NCBI RefSeq assembly: GCF_011927765.1
Contig: NZ_JAATJG010000013.1
Coordinates: 1 to 64,000 of the forward strand
Source of the DNA: Wenyingzhuangia aestuarii
Lineage (GTDB): Bacteria; Bacteroidota; Bacteroidia; Flavobacteriales; Flavobacteriaceae
DNA: 64,000 bases
Direction of reading: 5' to 3'
Shown: piece after piece, positions 42,400-49,806 of the stretch
Position numbering within the stretch: position 1 is the first letter of the stretch
Layout of the letters: each line of letters begins with the position of its first letter
Made by a program: the position numbers and the translations under genes
Notes under the pieces: model-generated
Databases searched by the model: none
Told to the model about the DNA's origin: nothing
The model's input: the letters and a program-made list of their open reading frames with translations, nothing else

Positions 42400-43317
42400 T
42401 TAAATAATCGCTCCAATTCTTTCAGTCTTATAAGGTGTTACAATAAAGTAATGTCTGTAAGAAAGGTCATTTGATTGACGAGTAGGATTAATTGCTGCAG
42501 GTGTAAAATACTGAGTAGTAATACCTGTTTTCTTTGCAATAGCATCTTTAACAAAAGCTACAGATGCCGTTTTATCGGTTGGATCTGCAACAACACCATA
42601 AGGTCTCTTTGCACCAGCTGCAGTAAATAATGGCATTGCAATATATGTATGCAATTCAAAACCAGCAATTACAGGGTTTGGCTTTCCTTTAGCATAATCA
42701 ATTAATTGATTACCAAAGTTTTTACGATCTAACAATAAATCATTCCAGTGATTGGTACACAAAACTAATCTACGGTCTTCAGCAGGCCACTCACCATCAT
42801 CACATTTTCTTTTAAAAGCCACTAAATCCTCATAAGTCAATAATTTTCTACCATCAGGATCTGTTAATCCTTCAGTTCCTCCCGTAGCTGCTAAAACAGG
42901 TGTTTTAACTGTATTCGTTTGTGGAGCAATTGCGTGAATTGCTTTTTTGTTCTTAGTGGTTAAGATAGGTCTTGTAGTACCTTTAGTAGCTGTATCAATA
43001 ATATCATAACTAGAACCTAATGTTTTATCATCTGGTAACGTAATTACTTTGGTTTGATACTTATCTAAAGTGATTTCAATAGTACCATCTTCGTACTCCT
43101 GAAAAGGAATAGGATAAGTAGTATTGTTGATTAAAATTTCTGCTTCAAACTCAGTTGTAGGCACATAAATTTTATTCATTTCTGTAGGTGTACCTCCGTT
43201 AATTTGTGTAACGTTTACATCTAGCTCCATAATACCTTCTAAGAAGGTAGCAACATCTGCGGTGTTTAGGTTTTGAATTACTCTACCTAACCATATTTCT
43301 GGAAAATTTGCTGGCAT
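42400..43317 (-). CDS. Major capsid protein
   Basis: 305 residues, Mu gpT/HK97-type by position and layout: it follows the protease/scaffold gene by 5 bases and is the largest head-cluster protein without enzymatic motifs. It begins NFPEIWLGRVIQNL and has a beta-rich middle and a conserved C-terminal segment (ITTQYFTPAAINPTRQSNDL). Expected to be the most abundant virion protein. Confidence 0.8.
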   Translation of the reverse strand: MPANFPEIWLGRVIQNLNTADVATFLEGIMELDVNVTQINGGTPTEMNKIYVPTTEFEAEILINNTTYPIPFQEYEDGTIEITLDKYQTKVITLPDDKTLGSSYDIIDTATKGTTRPILTTKNKKAIHAIAPQTNTVKTPVLAATGGTEGLTDPDGRKLLTYEDLVAFKRKCDDGEWPAEDRRLVLCTNHWNDLLLDRKNFGNQLIDYAKGKPNPVIAGFELHTYIAMPLFTAAGAKRPYGVVADPTDKTASVAFVKDAIAKKTGITTQYFTPAAINPTRQSNDLSYRHYFIVTPYKTERIGAII

Positions 43318-43322
43318 TTTAT

Positions 43323-44300
43323 TTAGTTTTTAGGTGTGAATATTTTTAAATACTGGCTCAGGTTTTCGTTTTTAAACGACAATTGAGCTGCAGCATCTAG
43401 CTTAAAAAAGTCTTCAGCTGTTTTTACTTCAGAAGGATCTTGTGCTCCTTCATTAATTTCAGCATTCAAGCTTTTTTTCTTTGGAATAGAGGCTAGAGTA
43501 TTCTCTAACAATGTTGGGTTTAAAACTCCTAGTTGCACAAATTCAGCTTCTTTGTCAGCAGTAATTTGTCCAGCCAACACAGCAGCAGATACTTTTTCTT
43601 TTACCGCTTTTAATTCCGCAGTTTCCTTAGCATCTTTAAATACTTTGAGGTCCTTTTTGTTTTTTTCATTTTCGGCACTCAACGCAAGTACTTTTGCATT
43701 AATAGCATCAACATCAACCTCTTCAGTTGTGTCTTTCATTCCTAGCGCTACAAAAGCAGCTGCGGATAAGGTTACTTTCTTCATATTATTTGTATTGTGA
43801 TTTTCTAATTGTGAAGCGGTTTGAATAGACAAACACAGTTGTTGAATCTTTTCTTGATCCATTAATTGTGCTTTTCCATTTTCGTCTTTTATATAAAGAG
43901 CTACTGAGTTTGAGTTTGATGGGACTGGAACTATAGAACATTCGTATAACTCACATTTAGTAAGCACTAATTTTCCATCAATCAGCTTTAAGTCTTTAGG
44001 ATCAAAGAAGAACCCCATAGAGCAAGATTTTATAAATCCACGCTCTACCTGACCCGCTATTTTTTGTACTGATGGTTCCGCAGTGTCAAATTCAGGTTCA
44101 GCCATTAACAGATCACCCTCAACACTAATATTTAACCACCTACCTAAAACGGTATGATTACTCAACCTATGGTCATCCAACATAATTGGGTTACCGTTGA
44201 ATCTTTGTAATGCAATACCCGATGTTAGCACATAAAAACCATAGCTGTTTTTTTGTGAAGGGTCATTAAATACAAATCTTAATTTCTTGTTTTCTGGCAT
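43323..44300 (-). CDS. Prohead protease with scaffold-like C-terminus
   Basis: 325 residues. N-terminal protease domain with a His in LDDHRLSNHTVLGRW (near 42-56) and Ser in GFIKSCSMGF (near 91), the His-Ser arrangement of herpesvirus/HK97-type maturation proteases. The C-terminal part from about 185 is charged and coiled (VDAINAKVLALSAENEKNKK), as expected for an internal scaffold removed during maturation, in line with Mu gpI/Z. Confidence 0.82.
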   Translation of the reverse strand: MPENKKLRFVFNDPSQKNSYGFYVLTSGIALQRFNGNPIMLDDHRLSNHTVLGRWLNISVEGDLLMAEPEFDTAEPSVQKIAGQVERGFIKSCSMGFFFDPKDLKLIDGKLVLTKCELYECSIVPVPSNSNSVALYIKDENGKAQLMDQEKIQQLCLSIQTASQLENHNTNNMKKVTLSAAAFVALGMKDTTEEVDVDAINAKVLALSAENEKNKKDLKVFKDAKETAELKAVKEKVSAAVLAGQITADKEAEFVQLGVLNPTLLENTLASIPKKKSLNAEINEGAQDPSEVKTAEDFFKLDAAAQLSFKNENLSQYLKIFTPKN

Positions 44301-44480: not shown

Positions 44481-45041
44481 ATGGGACGTACAAAAACAGA
44501 CGAAAAATCACATGCTAAAGAACTCTATTTAAGAAGTGAAGGAAAGCCTGATGTTGCTGAAATAGCAAAACGTGCTGGAGTATCATTAAGAACTTTACGA
44601 AAATGGATAAAAGAGGAAGATTGGGACAAGCAACGTACGTCTGTTTTAATTACACGTCCTAAAATTATAGAGGGCTATTACAAGCAATTAGAACTATTAA
44701 ACGATCATATTGCAGATAGGCCTATTGTATATGATATTCCAGATGCTTTGTTAAAAGGAACAAAGCTAAAAGATAAAAAAGGAGTTGAGTATGTAACGTA
44801 CCCAGACTACAACCCTGAAGACTTTCCTATTAAAGTAGGAAACTTTCCTACTTCAAGTGAATCTCACCAGATCACCTCCATTACCAATGCCGTAAAAAAA
44901 CTAGAAACGGAGGTTTCTTTGGCTGAAATATTTGAAGTATCAACTGGTGTTTTAGAAATGGTTAAGCAATCAGATTTTGAACTTTACAGAACACTATTAC
45001 CTGTTTTTGATGATTACATAACGCTTAAGTCTAAAAAGTAA
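44481..45041 (+). CDS. Terminase small subunit (DUF1804/gp27-like)
   Basis: 186 residues. N-terminal helix-turn-helix (KELYLRSEGKPDVAEIAKRA then GVSLRTLRKWIKEEDW) for packaging-site recognition, then a helical oligomerisation part. Overlaps the large subunit gene by one base (TAATG). Confidence 0.82.
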   Translation: MGRTKTDEKSHAKELYLRSEGKPDVAEIAKRAGVSLRTLRKWIKEEDWDKQRTSVLITRPKIIEGYYKQLELLNDHIADRPIVYDIPDALLKGTKLKDKKGVEYVTYPDYNPEDFPIKVGNFPTSSESHQITSITNAVKKLETEVSLAEIFEVSTGVLEMVKQSDFELYRTLLPVFDDYITLKSKK

Positions 45042-46573
45042 TGACTATTAAAACAGAGAATAAAAAGTACCTAGAGCTCTGGGAAGAGTACAAAGCAAAT
45101 GCTTTTAAATCTAGTCCTGTAGACAAGAGTGAAACGCCTTCAGAAAAAAGAAAGCGTATTGCTTATTTAGAAGTACATCCTGAAAAGTGGTTTAAATACC
45201 ATTTTTCCAACTTCTATACTTCTGAACCTGCACCTTTTCACTTAGCAGCTACTAAGCGTATTCTTAAAAATGCAGAATGGTACGAAGTACGTTCATGGTC
45301 TCGTGAGCTTTCCAAGTCTGGACGTACCATGATGGAAGTATTGTTTTTAGTTCTAACAGGTAGAAAGAAAAACGTATTAATGGTTTCTAATACTAAAGAC
45401 AATGCAGAACGTTTGCTATTGCCTTATAAATTACTGTTAGAAACTAGTGAAACTATTATTAATGATTATGGTGTTCAGCAAAAAGTAGGGAAATGGGAAG
45501 CAGATGAATTTGTTACCAAAAAAGGAGCAAGTTTTAGAGCTTTAGGTGCCGGACAATCTCCACGTGGTACCCGTAACGATGCTGTTAGACCAGACGTTAT
45601 TTTAATTGATGATATTGATACTGATGAGGAATGCAGAAATAAAAAACGTATCAAAGCCAAAGTAAAATGGATTAACGAAGCTTTGTATGCTACACGTTCA
45701 GTGTCTGAACCTTTGTTGTGGATTGCTTGTGGAAACCTAATTGCAAAGTTCTGTTGTATTACAGAAATGGCTAAAGTGGCTGACAAGCACGAAATAATTA
45801 ACATTCGTGACAAGGAAGGTAATAGTACATGGCCACAAAAAAACACAGAAGCTTTAATAGATAGAACACTTTCAAAAATACCGTGGTCGGCTCAACAAAA
45901 AGAATACTATAACAATCCTGTGTCTGAAGGAGACACTTTTAAAGAAATAACATGGGGTGTTTGTCCTCCTTTAAAAAGTTGTGACCATGTAATTATTTAT
46001 GCTGATCCATCTACCTCTAATAAAGACAGAGGAAAAAGTAAACAAGCCTCTCACAAAGGAGTTGTGATTGTAGGAGCAAAAGGACGAAAACGTTATGTAT
46101 ATAAAGTTTGGTTAGATCAAACAAACAATGCAAATTTTGTGGATTGGCTTTATGAAGCCTACGAATACATTAAAGAAAAAGGAGTAGATAGTGCAAGGGT
46201 TCATGTTGAAAACAACTCTTTACAAGATCCGCATTATACACAGGTCCTTTTACCATTAGTATATCAAAAGGCTGATGAATATGGCTACACCGTACCAATA
46301 ACTCCAGACACCCGTAAAAAGCCTGATAAATTCTTTAGGATAGAGGGAACACTAGAACCATTAAACAGATTAGGAAACTTGATTTTTAACATCGCTCAAA
46401 AAAAAGAGCCTAACATGGTTCGTATGGTGGAGCAAATGTTAGGAGTATCAGAAGATGCAACTGTAATGGATGGACCCGATGCATTAGAAGGAGGTTGCTG
46501 GTTATTAAACAAAAGGACTGTAAGAACTGAAACAAGTTATGCTATGGGTGCCATAGCTAACCGAAAATATTAA
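45041..46573 (+). CDS. Terminase large subunit
   Basis: 510 residues. ATPase domain with a Walker-A-like loop RSWSRELSKSGRT near 85-97 and Walker B VILIDDID near 186; RNase H-like nuclease with acidic positions in IIYADPST near 316 and VHVENNS near 388. Packages headfuls of phage (and host flank) DNA in Mu-type phages. The Walker A is of the deviant S/R-containing type usual for Mu gp28 relatives. Confidence 0.9.
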   Translation: MTIKTENKKYLELWEEYKANAFKSSPVDKSETPSEKRKRIAYLEVHPEKWFKYHFSNFYTSEPAPFHLAATKRILKNAEWYEVRSWSRELSKSGRTMMEVLFLVLTGRKKNVLMVSNTKDNAERLLLPYKLLLETSETIINDYGVQQKVGKWEADEFVTKKGASFRALGAGQSPRGTRNDAVRPDVILIDDIDTDEECRNKKRIKAKVKWINEALYATRSVSEPLLWIACGNLIAKFCCITEMAKVADKHEIINIRDKEGNSTWPQKNTEALIDRTLSKIPWSAQQKEYYNNPVSEGDTFKEITWGVCPPLKSCDHVIIYADPSTSNKDRGKSKQASHKGVVIVGAKGRKRYVYKVWLDQTNNANFVDWLYEAYEYIKEKGVDSARVHVENNSLQDPHYTQVLLPLVYQKADEYGYTVPITPDTRKKPDKFFRIEGTLEPLNRLGNLIFNIAQKKEPNMVRMVEQMLGVSEDATVMDGPDALEGGCWLLNKRTVRTETSYAMGAIANRKY

Positions 46574-46577
46574 GACT

Positions 46578-47036
46578 ATGTTTTTAAATAAAGAAGATTT
46601 AGGAAGTGTTATTTACAACTATCAGATAGATCAAATAACAGAAGGGAATGATGACTTAGTTCTAAATGCCATTGCTGCAGCCATAGACCAAGTAAAGAGT
46701 TATTTAACGGGGAACAACCAAAGGGAATGGATAGACGGACGTATTGTTTATGATGTTGAAGCCATTTTTAACAGCGTAGGAGCTGCACGTAACCCTTTAA
46801 TATTAGCACACACTAAAACCATTACCAAGTGGTGGATTGTTGAGTTATGTAATGCCGATGTGATTCAAGAACAGGCAGAAGATCGTTATGATAAATCTGT
46901 AGCATGGTTAAATCAATTAGCAAAAGGAGAAGTAACGTTAAGCACTTTACCAGTATTAGAACAACCCAATACAGAAGACGAGGAACAAACAGAACCTTTT
47001 AGAAGTGGTTCAAGAAAAAAATTTAATCACGAGTAA
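46578..47036 (+). CDS. DUF1320-like head-tail connector (Mu gp36-like)
   Basis: 152 residues. Begins FLNKEDLGSVIYNYQIDQIT and continues with a helical DUF1320 pattern (NAIAAAIDQVKSYL). DUF1320 proteins are head completion/connector proteins in Mu-like phages. 4 bases after terminase and 2 before the portal gene. Confidence 0.7.
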   Translation: MFLNKEDLGSVIYNYQIDQITEGNDDLVLNAIAAAIDQVKSYLTGNNQREWIDGRIVYDVEAIFNSVGAARNPLILAHTKTITKWWIVELCNADVIQEQAEDRYDKSVAWLNQLAKGEVTLSTLPVLEQPNTEDEEQTEPFRSGSRKKFNHE

Positions 47037-47038
47037 TT

Positions 47039-48283
47039 ATGGCTAAGAGTAAAAAAATATACAATCCTCAAAAGAATCAAAATTTAAGTCCGGGTGCTGT
47101 TGTGACTAGTTCTTCGAATTTAGCCAACCAAATTGCTCCTAAAGCGGTTTCTCAAACTCGTAAAGACATTAAGGACTGGAAAAAAGGAGAGCAATTGGCT
47201 AGTATGATTGACAATCCTAAATGGTACCTGTTACAACAATTACTAACAGAGGTTAGAAAAGACCCTTTGTTATTGTCTCAAATAAAGAATAGAGATCTAA
47301 AGTCTCTATCTAAAAGAATACTTCTTAGAAAACCTAACGGAGATATTGACGAGGAACAAACAGACTTCATCAACAACGCCATTTGGTCTCGTGAAATTAG
47401 TCAACACATACTAGATAAAAAGTATCATAAAATATCTTTGATTGAGTTTTCTTTTAATAAAAACAAAGAACTTGAAGTTACTTTAATTAACAGAGACAAC
47501 TTAGATCCTGTTAATGGGTACCTATACAAAGATTACTATGATGTTCATAAAATTGATTACCGTAACGCTAGAGAATACGGTACATGGGTTTTAGAGTTTG
47601 TAGAAAAGGAAGGTTTTGGACTGTTAAACAATGCAGTACCTCATGTATTATTTAAAAAGTTTGCTCAAAGCTGTAATTCTGAATTGTGCGAAATAGCTGG
47701 TATTCCTCCACGTGTCATGAAAACCAATACACATGATAAAGGAATGATGAACCGTGCAGAAAAAATGATGCGTGATTTAGGTTCTGCAGCTTGGTTTATT
47801 ATTGATGAAAGTGAAAGTTTTGAGTTTGCCGAAAATGTAAAAACAAACGGAGACCTTTACACCAATTTTATAAAACTTTGTGACGATCAAAACTGTTTGT
47901 TAATTAACGGAGCTATTATTGGCCAAGACACTAAAAACGGAAGTCGTTCAAAAGATGAAAGTTCAAGAGAGGTATTACAGGAGTTGGTAAATGCTGATTT
48001 GGTTGATTTAAAACAAGAATGGAATAGCAAGGTTATTCCGGCATTAATTAAGCTAGGAATACTTAAAGGAGATGTTGAGTTTGATTTTGAAGATGCTGAA
48101 GATTTAGACCAGTTGTTTGAATGGACTGAAAAACTATTGCCGTATAAAAACATAGAAGATAAATGGTTTATAGATAAGTTTGGAATCCCTGTTACTGGAG
48201 ATAAAAACCAAAGCAATCCAGATGGTAAAGCAAAACTACATTTAGGTGTTGATTCAAACGACCCAAACAATTTTTTCGTTTAA
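47039..48283 (+). CDS. Portal protein (DUF935, Mu gp29-like)
   Basis: 414 residues, DUF935-type portal: helical N-terminus, KSLSKRILLRKPNGD region, and a core including GTWVLEFVEKEGFGLLNNAV and CEIAGIPPRVMKTNTHDKG. Forms the dodecameric ring through which DNA passes. Its last codons AAT TTT TTC GTT TAA contain a perfect slippery heptamer, and an open -1 frame continues into the MuF gene. Confidence 0.88.
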   Translation: MAKSKKIYNPQKNQNLSPGAVVTSSSNLANQIAPKAVSQTRKDIKDWKKGEQLASMIDNPKWYLLQQLLTEVRKDPLLLSQIKNRDLKSLSKRILLRKPNGDIDEEQTDFINNAIWSREISQHILDKKYHKISLIEFSFNKNKELEVTLINRDNLDPVNGYLYKDYYDVHKIDYRNAREYGTWVLEFVEKEGFGLLNNAVPHVLFKKFAQSCNSELCEIAGIPPRVMKTNTHDKGMMNRAEKMMRDLGSAAWFIIDESESFEFAENVKTNGDLYTNFIKLCDDQNCLLINGAIIGQDTKNGSRSKDESSREVLQELVNADLVDLKQEWNSKVIPALIKLGILKGDVEFDFEDAEDLDQLFEWTEKLLPYKNIEDKWFIDKFGIPVTGDKNQSNPDGKAKLHLGVDSNDPNNFFV

Positions 48284-48305
48284 GCCCTAAAAGTTATTTT
48301 GGGGC
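48271..48305 (+). promoter_or_regulatory. Canonical -1 frameshift signal between portal and MuF genes
   Basis: Slippery heptamer T TTT TTC (48,271-48,277) in the portal frame, 6-base spacer GTTTAA (48,278-48,283) that includes the portal stop, then a stem-loop GCCCTAAAA (48,284-48,292), loop GTTA, TTTTGGGGC (48,297-48,305): 9 bp with one G-U. No U-run follows, so it is not a terminator. The -1 frame leads into the MuF protein; the fusion would have 413 + 509 = 922 residues. Confidence 0.78.
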
Positions 48306-48327
48306 ATTACACAACCGTATCGATTAT

Positions 48328-49806
48328 TTGTATGATTGTGAGTGCGGAACTTGTAAACATCAAAAAGAGCAAATCACACTTGCTTTAGAAGATAATTTTA
48401 AACCTGTTTTAAATGCTGTTAAAAAGGCTTTAAAAACATTACATACAAAAGGAAATTATCACCCTAAAGATTTAGCGGACACCAAAGAATATATCCATTT
48501 AATTGATGCAACTAACAATGTGTTTAATTATGCTTTAAAGCAGGTAGATTTATCGCCCACTATGTTAAAACATCTACAAAATGATGTATATACATTTTCT
48601 GCCGTAAAAACACATACACAATTGTTAGAGCTTTCTCGTGAGCTTTTAACCACTGAGAAACAAATTAAACCTTTTGCAACTTTTGAACATGATGTTTCTA
48701 AAATAGTAACAGCATATAATAGTCACTATTTAGAAGCTGAATATGAATTTGCTGTAGGAGGATCTCAAATGGCTGATAGATGGGAAAGCTTTAGTGATGA
48801 TGAACGTTATTTATTACAATACCGTACGGCCAATGATGACAAGGTAAGAGATTCACATGCTGTATTGCACAATATTACGCTACCTAAAGATGATCCTTTT
48901 TGGGATAAGTATTTTGCTCCCAATGGGTGGAGGTGTAGATGTTTAGTAGTACAACTATTAAGAGCATTACATAAAACATCTGACAGTAAAAAAGCTATTG
49001 AGTTAGGAGAAAAAGCTACTACTGCTATAGATAAGAATGGAAAAAACAAACTAGAAATTTTCCGTTTTAATCCTGGGAAGAAAAAAATAATTTTCCCTCC
49101 AGACCATCCATACAATAAAGTAAAAGGAGCTGATTTTGTAAAAGAAGAAGTAAGAAAAGGTAACATTAAACCAGAAGCTTCTAATTTACCTGCAGGAATA
49201 AGTGATTATGAAAATAAACTAGGGATAACTGTTGATAGATCCTTCTTTAATCACATTCAACCAGACACAAAGTTTACAACTACAAATGTAGGCGGACAAA
49301 CAGGAAAAGGAGCGTATTATTTACCAAGTGAGAATACTGTAAAAATACCTATAGACCGTAGAAGAAAAAAAAGTAAATGGAAAGCAGAAAGTGTTGTTTA
49401 TCATGAGTTTGGACATGCTATAGATTGGCAACAAAACTTAAAGGATAATCCGTTAGTTAAAAAACTAATGGACAAATACAGAAAGCTATATGCTAAAGAC
49501 AGTAATAAGTTGTTTAAAGATTTAGCGGAAAAAGCAAATGATAGAGGTGTTCAGTCTTATATTAAAAGTGACTGGAACACTATGGAACAAACAGGAGGAT
49601 TTGATGACACCTTAATGTCTTTAAATAGCAATTTTGGTAGAGGACATACTAAAGCGTATTTTAAAATCAAAGGTCGTTCAGAAGCTGAATTTTTAGCGCA
49701 TGCTTTTGAAAATAGATTTGCAGGAAATAGTGTTTTTAAGGAATTAGCACCTGACTTGTACGAAGATTCTAAAAAGTTAATTGATGAATTACTAAAACTA
49801 AAATAG
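48328..49806 (+). CDS. MuF-type head morphogenesis protein with C-terminal HExxH metallopeptidase-like domain
   Basis: 492 residues if begun at the TTG shown; there is no ATG or GTG nearby and the frame is open back to 48,253, so expression by -1 frameshift from the portal gene is likely. The N-terminal half is the MuF/SPP1-gp7 domain, with PNGWRCRCLVV near 196-206. After a linker the last ~200 residues form a zincin-like domain: VVYHEFGHAIDW with HExxH at about 358-362 and a downstream Glu candidate in EAEFLAHAFENRF near 452. MuF proteins with variable C-terminal enzyme domains are known as phage polymorphic toxins; that reading is inference. Confidence 0.8.
   Translation: MYDCECGTCKHQKEQITLALEDNFKPVLNAVKKALKTLHTKGNYHPKDLADTKEYIHLIDATNNVFNYALKQVDLSPTMLKHLQNDVYTFSAVKTHTQLLELSRELLTTEKQIKPFATFEHDVSKIVTAYNSHYLEAEYEFAVGGSQMADRWESFSDDERYLLQYRTANDDKVRDSHAVLHNITLPKDDPFWDKYFAPNGWRCRCLVVQLLRALHKTSDSKKAIELGEKATTAIDKNGKNKLEIFRFNPGKKKIIFPPDHPYNKVKGADFVKEEVRKGNIKPEASNLPAGISDYENKLGITVDRSFFNHIQPDTKFTTTNVGGQTGKGAYYLPSENTVKIPIDRRRKKSKWKAESVVYHEFGHAIDWQQNLKDNPLVKKLMDKYRKLYAKDSNKLFKDLAEKANDRGVQSYIKSDWNTMEQTGGFDDTLMSLNSNFGRGHTKAYFKIKGRSEAEFLAHAFENRFAGNSVFKELAPDLYEDSKKLIDELLKLK

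Follow-up and report, generated by a model that had tools for sequence, protein, structure and literature searches.

A probable -1 frameshift signal, conserved in two polarities, between portal and MuF in phages of Bacteroidota

The portal-MuF junction of a Wenyingzhuangia prophage

We analysed a stretch of 64,000 nucleotides from Wenyingzhuangia aestuarii (contig NZ_JAATJG010000013.1, positions 1 to 64,000; hereafter the window), which according to Pfam matches contains a prophage with Mu-type head genes. The subject of this work is the junction between its portal gene and the frame of the MuF head protein, where a slippery heptamer is followed by a hairpin. Judged by the portal, the closest named relative found is in Wenyingzhuangia heitensis and is 99.5% identical.

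The portal gene, of the Mu gp29 type, lies on the plus strand at 47,039-48,283 (Portal_Mu, PF06074, E 1.6e-58). It encodes 414 amino acids in the zero frame and stops with TAA at 48,281-48,283. The 3' end of the gene reads AAT TTT TTC GTT TAA in the window sequence and contains the heptamer T TTT TTC (48,271-48,277, plus strand), which is in the portal frame and is kept in relatives. According to the original prediction the portal gene ends on this heptamer; the heptamer and its coordinates were right, but the gene continues with GTT TAA. The six nucleotides after the heptamer, GTTTAA (48,278-48,283, plus strand), form a spacer that includes the portal stop codon. Next on the same strand come the 5' arm of the hairpin, GCCCTAAAA (48,284-48,292), the loop GTTA (48,293-48,296) and the 3' arm, TTTTGGGGC (48,297-48,305), all taken from the predicted fold and, for the 5' arm, also from compensatory variation among relatives. 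Folding the RNA of 48,279-48,328 gives exactly the 9-bp hairpin at 48,284-48,305, with an energy of -12.9 kcal/mol and a z-score of -2.87; three of 200 shuffles fold as well. Sequence and fold agree with the spacer, stem and loop as first proposed. Two other candidates for the junction were rejected: a transcription terminator, as 47,900-48,700 is without a terminator-like site, and a known RNA family, as a search of 48,100-48,500 against Rfam gave nothing at E 1 or better.

The MuF frame is -1 to the portal and open from stop to stop at 48,253-49,806 on the plus strand (Phage_Mu_F, PF04233, E 1.9e-10), in agreement with the original prediction. Its core domain is the PF04233 match at 48,703-48,948 (plus strand), residues 151-232 of the open frame. 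The MuF portion used after slippage would start with CGT at 48,277, and slippage would give a portal-MuF fusion of 922 residues (413 + 509), the length that had been predicted. From 48,253 to about 120 nucleotides past the portal stop, the only ATG, GTG or TTG in the MuF frame, as read in copy L015, is a TTG at 48,328-48,330 (plus strand). The claim that MuF is without an ATG or GTG start therefore holds over this range, and the TTG is the sole nearby candidate for a separate MuF start. It is not conserved: in L006, where the portal is 86% identical, the position reads TTA and the MuF frame is otherwise kept. In a comparison by eye of the window with L006, three of the five changed codons between hairpin and TTG are synonymous in the MuF frame, and five of seven when the TTG and the following codon are added. 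For the earlier statement that the residues before the TTG look coding, these counts are modest evidence.

A -1 programmed ribosomal frameshift site is recognised by a zero-frame heptamer of the form X XXY YYZ, a stimulatory structure at a fixed short distance downstream, a -1 frame that is open across the slip site and protein-coding beyond it, and conservation that exceeds the protein-coding need. At the junction we find the heptamer in register, the 9-bp hairpin at six nucleotides, a -1 frame open from 48,253 that leads into PF04233 and, in the relatives described below, a choice of phenylalanine codons and compensatory base pairs.

Conservation of the signal and its two polarities

Relatives were gathered by several protein searches in IMG/VR, one of them limited to its best 80 matches, together with phage records, from one species-genome scan, and from whole genomes of the order and of the phylum (395 each, overlapping). 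We built our own portal and MuF profiles and classed the portals by the register of the next MuF. The final set, which leaves out portal pieces with fewer than 120 aligned residues or an E-value above 1e-8, holds 236 portal rows. MuF follows in the -1 register in 141 of them, shares a single open frame with the portal in 46, and lies in +1 in 13 and in frame 0 in 6; a further 24 rows have no MuF and 6 are cut by contig ends. Some of the rows duplicate one another, and clusters were made at 80% portal identity. Of the resulting 152 clusters, 83 are -1, 26 fused, 12 in +1 and 6 in frame 0; 22 have no MuF and 3 are cut. An earlier set had 32 portal rows without MuF by our own profile, some of which were contig ends.

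At the junction of 75 of the 83 -1 clusters a heptamer T6N or A6N stands in frame, against 2.1 expected from the in-frame rate of T6N and A6N in the same portal genes (33 in 31,986 codons). With a hairpin defined by at least five pairs and a score of 14 or more, the 83 clusters divide into 60 with T6N and hairpin, 3 with T6N without hairpin, 12 with A6N, 3 with another X XXY YYZ heptamer (AAATTTT in L020, GGGAAAG in L023 and L027) and 5 with none. In the main T6 class the X XXY YYZ register is exact and the final letter is C or T. The distance from heptamer to hairpin in the 60 clusters is six nucleotides in 40, five in 12 and four in 8.

In the earlier set the hairpin search succeeded at 57 of 59 T6 junctions. 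The same search found a mean of 2.5 hairpins (maximum 7) in 100 shuffles of these junctions, 1.8 (maximum 5) in windows from the portal body and 2.5 in windows from the MuF body. The letters of the hairpin differ among relatives, with compensatory pairs. The outer pairs are almost invariant, pair 1 being G-C in 59/59 T6 junctions, while pair 5 is CG in 38, GC in 10, UG in 5, UA in 4 and AU in 1; six standard pair types occur at pair 6 and five at pair 7. Because the arms were picked for pairing, the shuffle and body controls outweigh the pair counts alone. A conserved heptamer and compensatory stem changes in related phages had been named as one check of the prediction, and both are found across diverse relatives.

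The heptamer encodes two phenylalanines, and an amino-acid need for this dipeptide was rejected as the cause of the T6 run. Of the 109 -1 and fused clusters, 81 have an FF at the junction and the other 28 have none there. In 79 of the 81 the last junction FF and the base before it are written T TTT TTC or T TTT TTT, whereas for FF elsewhere in the same genes a T precedes in 15 of 70 and the first codon is TTT in 34 of 70. The portal stop varies in position: in the 60 clusters with T6 and hairpin it comes by the spacer end in 18, as in the window, within the hairpin in 18, and past the hairpin in 24, as in hankyphage (L008). The signal, not the portal stop, is the conserved element. A plain -1 overlap of the ATGA type may fit the clusters without heptamer (L031, L032, L043, L062, L066), not the rest.

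Loss of the heptamer or stem in homologues, which the original prediction named as refuting, is not seen in the clade at large, though exceptions exist: L198 and L208 among the fusions and the five -1 clusters without heptamer. The Flavobacterium phages FPSV-S1 (L014) and lotta8-1 (L162) have separate MuF genes, and these look like losses.

In 26 clusters portal and MuF lie in one open frame, and 16 of these have the same signal in the linker. The 26 divide into 16 with T6 and hairpin, 1 with T6 alone, 6 with A6N, 2 with another heptamer and 1 with none. T6N or A6N is thus in the linker of 23 of the 26, against 2.4 expected. In 16/16 fused clusters with T6 and hairpin the -1 frame terminates after 18-28 codons, the slip codons counted. 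The polarity would here be inverted, the zero frame giving the fusion and slippage the plain portal. Three Porphyromonas phages (L164, L167, L168), examined among the ten phage records that hold this fusion stretch, have single frames of 852-853 amino acids annotated as 'portal' or 'portal protein', an annotation that would mask a second, shorter product. Their linker carries T TTT TTC, six nucleotides and the arms GCCCCGTC and GGCGGGGC, with the -1 stop 21-26 codons on. The fused signal recurs in L140 and in further relatives. In L164 (Porphyromonas phage phage012a_381OKJP, 1,516-4,077), L140 and the other T6 fusions a -1 slip would release a plain portal.

On a portal tree at least four polarity changes are needed among 80 T6 rows, and eight among 97 T6/A6 rows. 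This is one quick tree, with support from the Shimodaira-Hasegawa approximate likelihood-ratio test (SH-aLRT) only, 46 of 143 inner branches open and five long end branches, and it yields the minimum number of changes, not their history. Both arrangements should, by their sequences, yield both proteins. The same signal with a different default frame is hard to explain unless the making of both proteins is selected, and the reversal offers a natural test of which ratio of the two products is important.

The presence of in-frame fusions in relatives speaks for the idea that an intact fused gene has been split by a frameshift mutation, through sequencing error or decay. However, the -1 register and its signal turn up repeatedly, in different genomes, in isolated phages and in contigs from metagenomes, and T6N or A6N is kept in 23 of the 26 fused clusters, so that we give error or decay practically no credence.

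We regard the recoding signal itself as near certain, and its use as very likely. A -1 programmed ribosomal frameshift at the portal-MuF boundary, producing a plain portal and a fusion, is in our judgement highly probable. This reading is strongly supported by the heptamer, the spacing, the hairpin, the compensatory changes, the codon choice and the relatives of inverted polarity. The original finding is right and larger than it was: it is a conserved recoding signal in many Bacteroidota phages, in two polarities.

Observations against frameshifting and other routes to MuF

Several observations weigh against frameshifting at the junction or limit its reach. The fusion product is a prediction from sequence. 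In the earlier set a good hairpin is present at only 3 of 10 A6N junctions, and a single fold z-test gives z below -2 in only 38 of 70 junctions, with a median of -2.1. Heptamers also occur in +1 or frame-0 loci: among the 12 +1 clusters, 9 are without a heptamer, 2 have A6N (L162, L172) and 1 has another heptamer, and among the 6 frame-0 clusters the numbers are 4 without, 1 with another heptamer and 1 with T6 and hairpin (L021). The viral set was selected by likeness to members of the signal-bearing subset. In an even survey of Bacteroidota, Portal_Mu was found in 44 of 395 genomes at 53 listed places, from which 50 loci were taken and the broken locus G519 excluded; T6 with hairpin is present in only 5 of the 49 scored portal rows, the window's own prophage included, and 20 of the 49 have no detectable MuF. 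A further 7 rows, all from genomes of one family (f32), have A6N, 3 are -1 or fused with a different heptamer, and the last 14 are in other registers, in -1 without heptamer or on cut contigs. From the 5 and the 20 of 49 it follows that only some Mu-type portals carry the device. Lastly, a codon that could start MuF is present at 42 of 59 distinct T6 junctions, either ahead of the slip site or at most 90 nucleotides past it. Some separate MuF could also be made there, and at these junctions the start-codon test alone cannot exclude separate initiation.

The frame-0 portal of L021, ending in T6 and hairpin, could be a damaged copy or a different arrangement.

The possible starts favour another account, that MuF is an ordinary separate gene re-initiated at the TTG of 48,328 or a like codon and that the overlap is incidental. 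The window does have this TTG, and in the hankyphage records the annotated MuF gene begins at the portal stop or shortly after it. A separate MuF gene is also found in Mu and five other phages of non-Bacteroidota hosts (Mushu, a Helicobacter prophage, SuMu, POA1180 and martha); MuF is in the -1 register in none of these six, and the Helicobacter prophage has an A6N site at the portal end. However, the TTG is TTA in L006, 53 of the 59 junctions have no MuF-frame ATG, GTG or TTG ahead of the slip site, and 17 have no start codon either there or within 90 nucleotides downstream. A separate start also leaves the heptamer, the spacing, the hairpin and the inverted-polarity fusions unexplained, and we consider it very improbable.

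Slippage could instead be by the RNA polymerase, at T6 or at A-runs, giving mRNAs one base longer or shorter. Long A-runs without a hairpin suit transcriptional slippage, and several A-run junctions have 9-10 A and are mostly without hairpin. The main class, however, has only six T, placed exactly as X XXY YYZ requires, with a spacer of almost constant length and a downstream hairpin. Register, spacer and hairpin are what ribosomal frameshifting needs, and slippage of the polymerase appears unlikely.

The A-runs have their own distribution. In the family f32 loci L056, L060, L067-L070 and L079 the T6 is replaced by A AAA AAG or A AAA AAA, mostly without a hairpin, and L060 has a hairpin at six nucleotides. 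The Flavobacterium columnare phage fF4 (L170) has the -1 register with an A-run, and the Elizabethkingia phage TCUEAP3 (L163) has, by eye, the T6 signal.

Proposed mixed portal rings and an effector-like MuF

Under ribosomal frameshifting, most ribosomes would pass T TTT TTC and terminate, giving the plain portal, and the hairpin six nucleotides downstream would make a fraction slip back one base and enter MuF, giving the 922-residue portal-MuF. For hankyphage, the coordinates of L008 predict a plain portal of 462 residues and a portal-MuF of about 940. The complete portal domain is common to both proteins, so co-assembly in one ring is expected, and the slip rate would then set how many ring subunits carry MuF inside the head. 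Known portals have twelve subunits, and their C-termini face the head interior, so that MuF would lie inside the head. By arithmetic, if ribosomes slipped at a rate of around 10%, each ring would have about one fused subunit. The effector-like variable C-terminal domain would be brought into the head along with MuF. We infer here the slippage itself, its rate, the mixed rings, the loading and the delivery.

Mixed portal rings, as suggested by the shared portal domain, have in our estimate somewhat better than an even chance. The same holds for the wider proposal that a signal kept through several polarity reversals builds mixed rings, a set share of whose subunits, be it the minority or the majority, carries MuF and an exchangeable effector domain. 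Setting the number of MuF through such rings is the best but unproven purpose of the signal. If it is true, effectors would be loaded at the portal itself, and the rate of slipping would determine how many copies of an effector the head carries. A portal-MuF fusion in a fraction of the subunits would directly explain, for a group of Bacteroidota phages that includes hankyphage, how the number of MuF is set and how MuF-borne effectors enter the head.

The frameshift could also be real and the fusion serve only to make or import MuF, with a protease, the prohead protease or another, freeing MuF after assembly and leaving the ring unfused. The window has a gene for a prohead protease of the Peptidase_S78 family (43,323-44,300, minus strand), and excerpts of Jamet 2017 and of the SPP1 review treat gp7 of SPP1 as a protein of its own, kept in place by contacts with the portal. 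Release by proteolysis gives no reason, however, why a separate MuF gene would not suffice. We hold it to be a possible but rather doubtful account. In the part of Jamet 2017 concerned, the SPP1 head contains one or two copies of gp7, its MuF protein, attached to the portal.

In the window the variable C-terminal domain lies at 49,171-49,803 (plus strand) and has a HEFGH motif at 49,402-49,416. The MuF of L005 is 98.7% identical to that of the window over residues 1-306, after which there is no match, although the L005 frame is 532 codons long. Otherwise near-identical loci thus have differing MuF C-terminal domains, at 49,171-49,803 in the window and at 6,115-6,810 in L005. Eight MuF C-termini were scanned against Pfam with curated cut-offs. 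That of hankyphage (L008) matches Gln_amidase (E 3.8e-10) and those of L009 and L010 match LPD3, all above the cut-off; the window, L016, L018 and L020 have weak matches below it; and among the eight, L005 has no Pfam match. For the window the matches below the cut-off are the lethal-factor family and Peptidase_M90, neither of them significant, and we claim no kinship. We take both to be zincin-type metallopeptidases. An AlphaFold model of MuF (5 rows) has a mean predicted local distance difference test score (pLDDT) of 47. A Foldseek search with it gave no match at E <= 0.001; the best rows, at E 0.12 to 0.47 and not significant, were of the lethal-factor family.

Among the marks of the polymorphic MuF effector family are a MuF domain encoded beside the portal gene, exchangeable C-terminal domains and a neighbouring immunity gene; the window MuF has the first and, with L005, the second. 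Excerpts of Jamet 2017 and Bxa 2024 describe both properties for the MuF polymorphic toxins, which share them with the MuF studied here. As the C-termini are exchangeable, the signal may serve to attach effectors to the portal.

A near parallel among known systems is the G/GT-type frameshift of the lambda tail-assembly chaperones, reportedly described by Xu, Hendrix and Duda in 2004. As proposed for portal-MuF, -1 slippage there at X XXY YYZ makes two proteins in a set ratio, alike at the N-terminus and different at the other end. Unlike G/GT, the genes here belong to the head module and one signal occurs in two polarities. In a tail-chaperone frameshift both frames encode tail chaperones before the tape measure gene, whereas the frames at this junction encode Portal_Mu and Phage_Mu_F. 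The in-frame long form and slipped short form of the inverted polarity resemble dnaX, where tau, the long form, is in frame and gamma, the short form, is made by slippage near a hairpin. Unlike dnaX, the gene here is a portal gene, and relatives have the opposite polarity too. According to excerpts of the SPP1 review, the frameshift of SPP1 17.5 uses UUUUUUC, the same heptamer as the portal-MuF site. The capsid frameshifts of T7 gene 10A/10B and of phiEco32-like phages are described in part of the Privateer paper as making a longer minor head protein, which joins the same shell, as the portal-MuF fusion would. They concern the major capsid, and the signal here concerns the portal. We know of no T7- or phiEco32-like capsid extension that, like MuF, is a conserved head gene in its own right. 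Microbacterium phages EA3, EA5, EA8 and EB are described in excerpts as having in-frame portal-MuF fusions, with both domains in one polypeptide as here; frameshifting is mentioned in those excerpts only for tail chaperones, and the comparison is by description only.

The original prediction knew of no described portal-MuF frameshift, and in open PubMed Central (PMC) full text, with subscription papers and preprints outside the scope, we found none either. The word 'frameshift' is absent from the main texts of Jamet 2017 and Bxa 2024, as are 'frameshift', 'portal' and 'MuF' from the main text of the hankyphage paper. A frameshift that mounts MuF on the portal looks like a so far undescribed arrangement. 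In all five annotated -1 records examined (L007, L008, L163, L165, L166) MuF is given as a separate gene starting past the slip site, and the MuF products in databases may therefore be truncated. Within their loci, the annotated starts downstream of the slip site are at 3,145 in L163 and at 3,067 in L166 (hankyphage jmh43).

The head genes of the window are apparently on both strands, at 42,400-44,300 (minus) and 44,481-49,806 (plus). The minus strand has the prohead protease (PF04586) and a gene in the capsid position without a Pfam match. On the plus strand are a gene in the terminase position, also without a Pfam match, Gp36, the portal and MuF.

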